From a virus: DNA of 64,000 bases. The translations under genes and the position numbers were made by a program. Within the stretch, counting starts at the first letter, position 1. Every line of letters starts with the position of its first letter. The stretch spans positions 1 to 64,000 of IMG/VR virus record IMGVR_UViG_3300028146_000008. One strand, given 5' to 3'. The notes under the pieces were generated by a model, which worked only from the letters and a program-made list of their open reading frames with translations, was not told where the DNA came from and did no database searches. This document shows positions 46,249-59,944 of this stretch, piece after piece.

Positions 46249-46323
46249 TGGGGCCCAGTGATGGATTTGAACCACCGACCCGCTGTTTACAAAACAGCCG
46301 CTCTGCCTCTGAGCTAACCGGGC
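46249..46323 (-). tRNA. tRNA-Thr (UGU)
   Basis: Acceptor GCCCGGT/ACTGGGC, D-arm GCTC/GAGC, anticodon stem GCTGT/ACAGC with loop TTTGTAA (anticodon TGT), T-arm with TTCAAAT, CCA encoded. The discriminator base is C, unusual for tRNA-Thr. Confidence 0.9.
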
Positions 46324-46329
46324 AAAACT

Positions 46330-46403
46330 TGGCGGGGTCGAAGGGAATCAAACCCTCGTTTTTCGAGCGACAGTCGAGCGTCTTGTCACTAGACGACGAC
46401 CCC
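46330..46403 (-). tRNA. tRNA-Asp (GUC)
   Basis: Acceptor GGGGTCG/CGACCCC, D-arm GTCT/AGAC, anticodon loop CTGTCGC (anticodon GTC), T-loop TTTGATT, G73 and CCA encoded. The first pair of the anticodon stem is C-A. Confidence 0.88.
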
Positions 46404-46409
46404 TAAATT

Positions 46410-46483
46410 TGGAGCGAGACGTGAGAATCGAACTCACTTCTTCAGTTTGGAAGACTGAGGCACTGCCAATATGCCAGTCCCGC
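46410..46483 (-). tRNA. tRNA-Gly (UCC)
   Basis: Acceptor GCGGGAC/GTCTCGC, D-arm GCAT/GTGC, anticodon stem TCAGT/ACTGA with loop CTTCCAA (anticodon TCC), T-loop TTCGATT, CCA encoded. Confidence 0.92.
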
Positions 46484-55298: not shown

Positions 55299-55880
55299 GT
55301 GCAATTCCTAACCACATCTGAACTGTTGGCCGTTCTTAAAGTTGCTCGCGACCGTTCGCTTCGAGATTGGCTGCTTATGGTCGTTCAGTTCAACCACGCT
55401 CTGCGGCCATCCGAGGTTTGTGCAATCAAGATGGACGATATCAAAAACGGTTCGCTTACTGTTCAACGTCGAAAGGGATCGAAGCTAACTTGTCAGCCGC
55501 TCCGGAAACATAAGGGCCAAACACTTCTGGACGAAGTTCGCGGATTGTCCGAGTGGGTTAAGGTTCGGCCCCGAGACTGTGGTTCAGCGTTGTTCTGTAG
55601 TGCAAAAGGTGGACCGATCACTGCGAAGCACTACAACTTTCTGTTTAAGAAGTACGCGCTGTTGGCGGGATTGCCACAATCTAAAGCTCATCCTCATGCC
55701 ATACGCCACACGAGCGCCACGTTAATGGCTCGCCAGGGTATGGACATCGGATGGATTCAAACACATTTAGGCCATACCTCAATTACGAGTACGGCCATCT
55801 ACACACATTTGAACTCAGAAGAAGTTTCTGCAAAAGCCCATGAAGCTTTCATGGACGCGTTTAAAGATCCGACCACGTAA
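55299..55880 (+). CDS. int: Minimal tyrosine recombinase (integrase)
   Basis: 193 residues from GTG 55299 with GGGAGG upstream. Catalytic residues: Arg36 (HALRPSEV), Lys59, His133-xx-Arg136 (PHAIRH), His159 (HLGHTS) and Tyr168 (IYTHL). The N-terminal core-binding and arm-binding domains of classical integrases are missing, as in FimB-type recombinases. It would integrate or invert DNA; the tRNA-Asn-like gene 4 nt downstream is a likely attachment site. Confidence 0.92.
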   Translation: MQFLTTSELLAVLKVARDRSLRDWLLMVVQFNHALRPSEVCAIKMDDIKNGSLTVQRRKGSKLTCQPLRKHKGQTLLDEVRGLSEWVKVRPRDCGSALFCSAKGGPITAKHYNFLFKKYALLAGLPQSKAHPHAIRHTSATLMARQGMDIGWIQTHLGHTSITSTAIYTHLNSEEVSAKAHEAFMDAFKDPTT

Positions 55881-55884
55881 ACTG

Positions 55885-55969
55885 CTGGGGCAGCAGGAGT
55901 CGAACCTGCAATGTCCTTTCGGACTGTCGCCTTAACGGGGCGATGCTGTGCCAGTTGAGCCACACCCCA
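55885..55969 (-). tRNA. tRNA-Asn-like gene (GUU) with extended variable arm
   Basis: Acceptor TGGGGTG/TGCCCCA, D-arm GCT/AGC, anticodon stem TCGCC/GGCGA with loop CCGTTAA (anticodon GTT), T-arm GCAGG-TTCGACT-CCTGC and G73 as in tRNA-Asn. The variable region is 17 nt and contains GTCC-GAAA-GGAC; without these 12 nt it would be the normal 5. Position 33 is C, not T, and CCA is not encoded. Confidence 0.75.
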
Positions 55970-56805: not shown

Positions 56806-57672
56806 TTAAGCTTTCAGTTTCTGGTCTTCGATCTCCTGCCATTCCATAGTCAAACGCCGCATTCTTTTACGGTTTCCGTTTGCGCGGGAGTACCGTGTTG
56901 CTAGGCGGTTGTTGTCACCTGGATTGGTTTGGTTATCCCAGAGTCGTTTGTTCCAGGTCACCCATGATTTCATTCCGGTTTTATGCCCCTCTTTACCCAT
57001 CATTGGGTGCCAAAGATGGAGGATCTGACCGGGCAAGGTTTTATGCGGAGCGTACAAAGTATCCATTGCACGCATCGCTGAGTGGTCTTCGCCACCCCAA
57101 CCCCGGAATCTTGTGTCCCAGCCGCCGACAATATCAAATGCTACGCGCGGGAAGATTTGCATCATCGCGCCGTACCAGTGTCCGCGTCCGGATCCTAGAC
57201 GATTTTGAATATCGCAAGGATTAGGCGGCTCGGGAAAAACGTATGGGTCGCACGGTTTGGAATCTAGTACGCGCTGCGAGGCTTCGTCTGTTAGCCGGTA
57301 GAATTGGCGATACGGAACGAACCACAGTTTGTGGCCACGTCTGATAGCTTTGCGGATTCGCTTCGCACACAGGAGTACTGCTTCTATTTCGATGTATCCG
57401 TCCGCGTCGGCCACTACGATAATATCGCCGTGGGATTTCTTCACGCCTGCATTCACCGCAGCGGACTTGGAGAATGGCAGCTTCTTATCCGGATCGGTGC
57501 CTACGATTATTTCCGCGCCCGGTAGCTGGCACTCCCAGTATTTCTGAACCCACTTGAAATTCTTAGCTTGCCGTTTGTAGTGCTTGGACGGCTTGAACGG
57601 AATTACGATGCTGATTCCTTCGCCCTTTTTGTGCTTCTTTCTCAGCTTCTTCAGAAGTTTGAGTGATTTCAT
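56806..57672 (-). CDS. GT-A glycosyltransferase (GT7/GT2-like)
   Basis: 288 residues. SIVIPFKPSKHYKRQ begins the GT-A fold, KSHGDIIVVADADGYIE carries the DxD-type metal site, and 'VGGWDTRFRGWGGEDHSAMR' is the motif of the galactosyltransferase (GT7) C-terminal region. The C-terminal 40 residues are basic. Coupled to the pyruvyltransferase gene (ATGA overlap), so both may act on the same glycan. Confidence 0.9.
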   Translation of the reverse strand: MKSLKLLKKLRKKHKKGEGISIVIPFKPSKHYKRQAKNFKWVQKYWECQLPGAEIIVGTDPDKKLPFSKSAAVNAGVKKSHGDIIVVADADGYIEIEAVLLCAKRIRKAIRRGHKLWFVPYRQFYRLTDEASQRVLDSKPCDPYVFPEPPNPCDIQNRLGSGRGHWYGAMMQIFPRVAFDIVGGWDTRFRGWGGEDHSAMRAMDTLYAPHKTLPGQILHLWHPMMGKEGHKTGMKSWVTWNKRLWDNQTNPGDNNRLATRYSRANGNRKRMRRLTMEWQEIEDQKLKA

Positions 57673-58427
57673 CGGGCAGGCTCCAGAATGATATTTTCAA
57701 GAGCCTGATACGCATCGTAGATTTCAAACTTAGCGTCTTCGACATGGCCGCGAACTGGGTGAACCATTATTCCTGGTTCAAATGGTGTGTGGATCGACGC
57801 GCTGTAATCGCGAAACTTGAAATCGCCGCCTTCAGTGCGGTTATCCAACGCTTTTGCTAGTTCCACGCGGCGTGGCAGTCCGAATGCGTCGGCCACGATC
57901 ATGCCATGCAGCGATGATGTAACAATCCTCTCGCACGCGCCGATTTGCCGGATTACGGTGATCGGATCTTCTTGCGGGTCGATAACCCGTAGCTTTGCTT
58001 TACTCTTTTTGAACAGTTCTAAAAATCTAGGCGCGAGTTCTTTGTCTTTCCAGTGCGGAACGATGCCGAGGTCCCACTGTTTATCTTGTGGACCAACCAG
58101 CTCGTCGGCCAATAGTCCGGGATCGCCGAGTGCGTAATCTCCCTTGATTCCCTTTGCGGAGAGTGGGCCGCGTAATGCTAAAATTGTTGCGTCGGGCAAA
58201 TTGATTGTGCTCGACTCGCGGATTTTCCCGGAACCGAGTATGTAGCCACTGTAATCGGACGGGATGTGTTCAAGAACTGAACCGACCGAAACTACTTCGG
58301 CTTCTGCAGCGGGTGTCCATTCAACTTTGGCATTCGCAAATCTTTCCAGCAGAAACGGGGCAAGGGCATCGCCAAAATTAGAAACTCCCCGCCACCAGTA
58401 GCCCTTTACTTCGCCCATTTCTTCCAT
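57669..58427 (-). CDS. Polysaccharide pyruvyl transferase-like protein
   Basis: 252 residues. NFGDALAPFLLERF (first loop), GSGKIRES, LALRGPLSAKGI, ALGDPGLLADEL and 'RIVTSSLHGMIVADAFGLP' (residues 167-185) are the successive motifs of the PS_pyruv_trans family, which adds ketal pyruvate to sugars. It would put negative charge on a phage or host glycan. Second gene of a two-gene glycan unit. Confidence 0.92.
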   Translation of the reverse strand: MEEMGEVKGYWWRGVSNFGDALAPFLLERFANAKVEWTPAAEAEVVSVGSVLEHIPSDYSGYILGSGKIRESSTINLPDATILALRGPLSAKGIKGDYALGDPGLLADELVGPQDKQWDLGIVPHWKDKELAPRFLELFKKSKAKLRVIDPQEDPITVIRQIGACERIVTSSLHGMIVADAFGLPRRVELAKALDNRTEGGDFKFRDYSASIHTPFEPGIMVHPVRGHVEDAKFEIYDAYQALENIILEPAR

Positions 58428-58822: not shown

Positions 58823-59017
58823 CTATACCTTCCAGTATTTCTTTGCTTCTTCTGTTGCGGGAACACTTGGGTCTTGAATGTAGCTTTTACCGTCGATATT
58901 GTAGATATCTGTAGAGGCGGCCCTGTCAACCAGGTTCTCGCTAAATACTTTTTCTAGAGGCATCCTGGTAAGCAGCATCCCGAAGTCGTATGGGTGAATT
59001 TTAATTGGATCGGTCAT
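58823..59017 (-). CDS. Small hypothetical protein
   Basis: 64 residues (MTDPIKIHPYDFGMLL), coupled to the upstream stop. Unknown function. Confidence 0.75.
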   Translation of the reverse strand: MTDPIKIHPYDFGMLLTRMPLEKVFSENLVDRAASTDIYNIDGKSYIQDPSVPATEEAKKYWKV

Positions 59018-59160
59018 GCGATCTTCCTAATTACTTTAGTTGGTCCACACTTCTGGCACCGCCAGCCGTGGAGACCAGCTTTAACTTTTCCTTCGGTGGA
59101 TCCTGTGGGTGGTTTACGAACGCCTTGTCCGCATGTGGCGCACTGGTAGGAATAGTTCAC
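59014..59160 (-). CDS. Tiny zinc-ribbon protein
   Basis: 48 residues from GTG 59160, overlapping the upstream stop (GTGA). YQCATCGQGV and RCQKCGPT form a zinc ribbon. Could bind DNA or ribosomes; unknown. Confidence 0.72.
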   Translation of the reverse strand: MNYSYQCATCGQGVRKPPTGSTEGKVKAGLHGWRCQKCGPTKVIRKIA

Positions 59161-59402
59161 TTCTGGTTCTCCGGCAAAATAGCCATTGCTTTTTTGGAGA
59201 AGAACGAGGCAATTTCTAAATGCGTGCGGACAATGGCTAGTTCCCGGCCATTGGTCCCGCCAGGGAGCAGAATGTCCCCTCTTGGCCGCGCGGTTAGTGT
59301 TTCGATCTCAGTCAAAGCGCGGTCGAAAACTTCGGCCAGCTTCTTAGCCTTCTCGATGCCGCCTTCGTTCAATATATGAACTGCAAACTCTTTGTGGCTC
59401 AT
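59157..59402 (-). CDS. Acb2/Tad1-like small helical protein (candidate anti-defence)
   Basis: 81 residues, two helices. 'KAKKLAEVFDRALTEIETL' and 'NGRELAIVRTHLEIASFFSK' with a following AMA resemble the helical hairpin of the Acb2/Tad1 family, whose members bind cyclic nucleotides or gcADPR and block CBASS or Thoeris. The 'GRE.A.V.THLE.AS' spacing is the main evidence. Assignment from memory of the family; needs a profile search. Confidence 0.6.
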   Translation of the reverse strand: MSHKEFAVHILNEGGIEKAKKLAEVFDRALTEIETLTARPRGDILLPGGTNGRELAIVRTHLEIASFFSKKAMAILPENQK

Positions 59403-59578
59403 ACCGCGTGCTTACTCTGAAACACGATTGCCTTGGCCGGATCCGAATCTTGCACTCGGATAGTGGCTTGGATATTCAGGTTTACGAACCCCCGAATCTT
59501 ACGGAGATTAGCCACTTGTGTTTGGAACGCTTTTTCTACTTGTTCGCGGGTGAGCAATTTCTCAGTCGCTTTCTTCAT
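59399..59578 (-). CDS. Small hypothetical protein
   Basis: 59 residues from ATG 59578 with AAGGTGG upstream (MKKATEKLLTREQVEK). Helix followed by two beta strands (NLNIQATIRVQDSDPAKAIV). First gene of a coupled block of five. Unknown function. Confidence 0.75.
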   Translation of the reverse strand: MKKATEKLLTREQVEKAFQTQVANLRKIRGFVNLNIQATIRVQDSDPAKAIVFQSKHAV

Positions 59579-59944
59579 TTTCCACCTTAAAATTTCTAGA
59601 TAGGGACGGGGTTTTCGAGGCCCCGTCCAGTCATATCAATTCGCTTCGGACTTAGCACGTCGCCCGATCCCGTCATAAAAGCACTTTTTCAAATGCGCTT
59701 ATGACCGTGATCGGGAGATATGAAAGACCCCATCTAGCCTATAGGACTTCGTTTGTTCACTAAGTGAACGGAATATTTGCCGGATCTCTCTCACGAGCCC
59801 ACCGGCTGGGGTCCATTGGCATCGCTGTAGCTACGAGCGATACCCCTATCACGGACAAGTGAACTTTCTAAAATTTGGGGTTACTTATTTGCTGCGGCTA
59901 TCATTGACCGTTGCGCGAACCCCGCGCCCAAGACTCTCTAAACT
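59579..59944 (-). other. 366-bp structured leader region
   Basis: No gene is supported. Inverted repeats: GGACGGGG/CCCCGTCC (59604-59628); an interrupted hairpin CCCGATC..GTCATAA / TTATGAC..GATCGGG (about 59671-59724); ATCGCT..TAGC / GCTA..AGCGAT (near 59820-59840); and a palindrome copy at 59755. It could be an untranslated leader or structured RNA ahead of the 59.4-kb block. Confidence 0.55.
59755..59769. repeat. Dispersed palindrome copy, GTTCACTAAGTGAAC
   Basis: Perfect copy, identical to that at 9685, in the structured intergenic region. Confidence 0.85.

Follow-up and report, generated by a model that had tools for sequence, protein, structure and literature searches.

Acb2 and Tad1 are the closest described systems to the protein considered here. 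Both recognise several classes of signal, and di- and trinucleotides occupy separate pockets; the ligands of Acb2 are cyclic di- and trinucleotides, to which Tad1 adds gcADPR (PMC12043709). They differ in layout: Acb2 consists of a short N-terminal helix followed by two long antiparallel helices, whereas in Tad1 an N-terminal antiparallel beta-sheet stands ahead of the two helices (PMC12043709). In the Acb2 of T4, replacement of Y8 by alanine leads to the loss of cyclic dinucleotide binding (PMC12657218, PMC12657230), and a reduced affinity was reported for T68M in phage Bas35 (PMC12657230). A further solved member is deposited as 9PTQ under the title 'Structure of Acb2 homolog 43 in complex with 3'cADPR', and this title is the sole basis for the ligand assigned to it below.

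The gene described in this work is located in a window of 64,000 nucleotides, by which we mean the whole stretch of DNA analysed; it belongs to a viral record of 94,368 bases. The gene is part of a run of small genes with 4-bp overlaps, preceded by a long untranslated stretch:

59157..59402, minus strand: acb2-like gene, an 81-aa ATG open reading frame of the Acb2/Tad1 hairpin family; protein MSHKEFAVHILNEGGIEKAKKLAEVFDRALTEIETLTARPRGDILLPGGTNGRELAIVRTHLEIASFFSKKAMAILPENQK
59399..59578, minus strand: 59-aa gene directly upstream of the acb2-like gene, ATGA overlap, no family match
59014..59160, minus strand: 48-aa zinc-ribbon-like gene directly downstream of the acb2-like gene, two CxxC pairs and weak zinc-ribbon matches, GTGA overlap
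58823..59017, minus strand: 64-aa gene after the 48-aa gene, function not assigned, ATGA overlap
59579..59944, minus strand: structured untranslated stretch of 366 nt upstream of the small-gene run, recognized by folding against shuffles

An 81-residue reading frame, a block of tiny genes around it and a structured leader had been proposed in a first-pass annotation, and all three proposals were borne out; the strand, which had been left unstated, is the minus, and the plus-strand reading of 59157-59402 is interrupted by stops. The leader folds at -133 kcal/mol (z -4.28), and 0 of 100 shuffles fold as well. Two hairpins were noted in it: a long, imperfect one (CCCGATCACGGTCATAAGC...GGGATCGGG) and, immediately before the 59-aa gene, GGACGGGG/CCCCGTCC. 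No match to the leader was obtained in Rfam, a 19-base piece of the hairpin had no exact counterpart in viral contigs, and the results of promoter and terminator scans were no better than those for shuffles.

A profile was built from 36 relatives, with neither the window protein nor L003, its nearest relative, included. When all six frames of the window (1,303 segments) were searched, it gave the window protein as the sole significant match, at E 3.8e-26. With this profile the real protein scores 87.6 bits, against a maximum of 10.3 bits for 2,000 shuffles of it. Both results show a resemblance beyond chance. The GRE..-V.THLE.AS spacing pointed out in the first-pass annotation is indeed present, as GREL.IVRTHLE.AS, at residues 52-66. 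The protein of L003 is 71% identical to the window protein, and the virus carrying it has, in the stretch compared, no other recognisable gene in common with the window virus. Third codon positions account for 51 of the 83 differences between the two genes (pN 0.20, pS 0.84); judged against this relative, the acb2-like gene is under purifying selection.

The best family for the window protein is the Pfam Acb2_Tad1_hairpin (PF24729), with E 8.2e-6 and 26.4 bits, 0.6 bits short of the cut-off of 27 bits. L003 exceeds the cut-off (29.9 bits), as do the other relatives that were scanned one at a time. PF24729 is matched by all 38 sequences of the alignment, and it occurs once, above the cut-off, in every one of the 11 related virus records that were searched. 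When the relatives' profile was compared with the PDB, Acb2 homolog 43 (9PTQ) was the best match, at 1.7e-14 over 63 residues, and the next Acb2 was T4 Vs.4 (7UQ2), at 0.94; hhalign gave 2.7e-16 for homolog 43, 1.3e-4 for T4 and 0.03 for PaMx33. PHROG 1454, whose function is listed as unknown in PHROGs, is matched by 37 of the 38 aligned sequences with E up to 0.01, and by the window protein itself with E 0.049. PADLOC and NCBIfam models gave no meaningful match to the window protein. Taken with the modelled fold, these assignments make the window protein almost certainly a member of the Acb2 family. It is a known kind of phage counter-defence protein, to which this gene adds an ordinary new member.

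The single-chain AlphaFold2 model of the window protein has a pLDDT of 88.8 and a pTM of 0.74. It contains a short N-terminal turn (residues 4-6) and two long antiparallel helices, and no strand of three or more residues:

59295..59366, minus strand: first long helix, residues 13-36, in the AlphaFold2 model (pLDDT mostly 87-98)
59247..59294, minus strand: inter-helix loop of 16 aa, residues 37-52, from the MAFFT alignment (pLDDT 57 in residues 41-50)
59181..59246, minus strand: second long helix, residues 53-74, in the AlphaFold2 model
59214..59249, minus strand: GRELAIVRTHLE motif, in which R53, T60 and E63 are invariant (66/66) and which parallels GRWLAIGKTDIQ of PaMx33 Acb2

The model thus shows the layout of Acb2, a short N-terminal helix and two long antiparallel helices with nothing else. 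The hairpin domain is shared with Tad1 in Pfam, but the N-terminal beta-sheet domain of Tad1 is absent from the window protein, and because of this absence the architecture is that of Acb2 and not of Tad1. Of the joint Acb2/Tad1 proposal made earlier, the Acb2 part is upheld by Pfam, by the PDB profile and by Foldseek on both PDB and viral models, while the Tad1 part falls. In the Foldseek comparison with the PDB, which had been suggested as a check, 9PTQ comes first with probability 1.00, TM 0.69/0.80 and rmsd 2.0, followed by T4 Vs.4 (7UQ2, probability 0.47) and Acb2, though no match reaches E 0.001, the fold being small and made of two helices. Among viral models, 10 of the 12 top entries are named as Acb2/Tad1 hairpin proteins. 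In a control, the model of another relative (L007) placed T4 Vs.4 first, weakly (probability 0.35), and 9PTQ was absent from its list.

Residues were compared after 66 distinct sequences had been aligned by MAFFT with three references, homolog 43, T4 and PaMx33. R53, T60, E63 and F67 are present in 66 of 66 sequences, and F6 and K71 in 65. F6 aligns with T4 Y8, the aromatic residue of the dinucleotide pocket; Y11, the pocket aromatic of PaMx33, is one column off. T60, on the second long helix, corresponds to T4 T68 and PaMx33 T74. Homolog 43 has in common with the window protein the F-x2-H-x2-N-x2-G start, the GRE-x5-T-x-LE-x-A-x-FF-x2-K core and the two-helix fold; it differs in overall sequence (about 30% identity), in its loop (4 or 5 residues, against 16) and in the K/E that it, like most of the family, has after T60. 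At these family-consensus positions, K61 and E64, the window protein carries H and I, as does L003. The Acb2 proteins of T4 (Vs.4, 7UQ2) and PaMx33 (8H2X, 8H2J) share the hairpin domain, the aromatic near the N-terminus and the threonine, but are only about 20% identical to the window protein; the R of GRE is absent in T4, whereas PaMx33 has G-R-x6-T. The ligand-stacking F82 of T4 corresponds to A74 in the window protein. Since alanine is also found there in PaMx33 Acb2 and homolog 43, F82 is a trait of T4 and does not define the family.

Taken together, the locus is best explained as encoding a phage Acb2-family nucleotide-signal sponge, an explanation we hold with high confidence. As a member of this family, the window protein very probably works as a sponge for the nucleotide signals of host antiviral immunity. 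By analogy with Acb2, copies of the helical hairpin protein would form an oligomer, probably a hexamer, whose ligand pockets would lie at the subunit interfaces and be lined by F6 and H9 from one subunit and by the R53/T60 side of the second helix. During infection, the sponge would capture, uncut, the cyclic nucleotide with which a host immune enzyme raises the alarm, and because the signal would be sequestered, the effector (e.g., the NADase of Thoeris or an effector of CBASS) would stay off.

The identity of the ligand is a more tentative matter. An isomer of cADPR could well be bound, and 3'cADPR, a Thoeris-type signal, is the first choice, since it is the ligand in the structure of what is by far the closest solved relative; this proposal draws on one solved relative with about 30% identity. 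It also follows that cGAMP and cA3, which had been named in the first-pass annotation together with gcADPR, are not the only candidate ligands. The second choice, which we regard as possible but doubtful, is that this Acb2-family sponge binds chiefly the cyclic di- or trinucleotides of CBASS (cGAMP, c-di-AMP or cA3), as those of T4 and PaMx33 do, and not cADPR. It is favored by the resemblance of GRELAIVRT to GRWLAIGKT of PaMx33, by the equivalence of T60 and T4 T68, by the separate pockets and several signal classes noted above for Acb2 and Tad1 (PMC12043709), and by the loop: 16 residues in the window protein, a length closely shared only with L003, against 16 in T4, 15 in PaMx33, and 4-5 in most relatives, and thus unlike homolog 43. 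The overall sequence and fold, however, are much closer to homolog 43. It is also conceivable, though unlikely, that the soil-virus subfamily (the 66 distinct sequences) is a separate branch tuned to a signal that the T4 and PaMx33 proteins do not bind, with yet another specificity in the long-loop pair formed by the window protein and L003.

A degraded or repurposed hairpin protein that no longer binds signals, such as an adaptor or an escape from Panoptes sensing, is improbable. Panoptes is reported to select for lost Acb2 binding (PMC12657218), and both the change of K61/E64 to H/I and the score slightly below the Pfam cut-off would fit such a history, but every invariant position is retained, the same H/I occur in the 71%-identical L003, and purifying selection acts on the gene. 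Finally, two-helix hairpins weakly match many folds in Foldseek (CFP10-ESAT6, Rop), but a chance resemblance of an ESX/WXG-like or Rop-like hairpin to Acb2 can be practically dismissed, as it is refuted by the sequence profiles alone (1e-14 to 1e-26), with known pocket positions among the aligned residues.

Relatives of the putative sponge occur in at least 80 viral contigs (81 found, 80 kept), and among prokaryotes (84,980 species, one genome each) in three contigs, all from MAGs. With the window protein as the query, none were found in plasmids, and a single-sequence search of the genomes returned nothing. Direct tblastn of the window protein against phage and plasmid collections gave chance matches only, or none; with a relative as the query, one distant homologue was detected, gp36 of Streptomyces phage Zuko. 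The neighbouring genes are mostly not shared among the relatives' loci, and none is constant. This virus-restricted spread without constant neighbours is typical of an accessory virus gene that moves between unrelated phages. In six loci (L025, L027, L045, L047, L050, and L051), a group to which the window does not belong, GNAT-like and terminase-like genes lie near the sponge gene, and four others (L015, L016, L035, and L036) have another gene in common, whose function is unassigned.

The window virus is a soil phage, and its host is likely an acidobacterium, as judged from sequence similarity: the glycosyltransferase region of the virus has 70% DNA identity to Tunturiibacter phage Tunturi_5, the nearest terminase is that of Tunturi_3 (28% identity), and Tunturiibacter belongs to Acidobacteriota. 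The finding shows that uncultivated viruses, in this case one with a probable acidobacterial host, can carry putative Acb2-type sponges, and it implies that nucleotide-signal immunity may be in use in hosts of this kind. It also links PHROG 1454, a group of unnamed function, to an Acb2 homolog solved with 3'cADPR. The relatives in this group offer a ready set for tests of specificity and of the dilemma posed by Panoptes, in which the sponge itself can trigger defence.

Other features of the record were noted. At 56806-58427 (minus strand), polysaccharide pyruvyl transferase and glycosyltransferase genes lie in the same strand run, and the 70% identity to Tunturi_5 falls in part of this region, to galactosyl transferase genes of that phage. 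At 55299-55969, a 193-aa tyrosine-integrase-like catalytic domain (plus strand) ends 3 bases from the 3' end of a tRNA-Asn (minus strand), an arrangement usual at tRNA attachment sites, yet phage-like genes are found on both sides. Three tRNAs (Thr, Asp, and Gly) stand side by side at 46249-46483 (minus strand). In record bases 64001-94368 (L055, L056), the translations were read as a primase-helicase, ThyX, a UvrD-like helicase, SSB, an ERF-like protein and RecA, and a PolA-type DNA polymerase encoded there was confirmed by tblastn.
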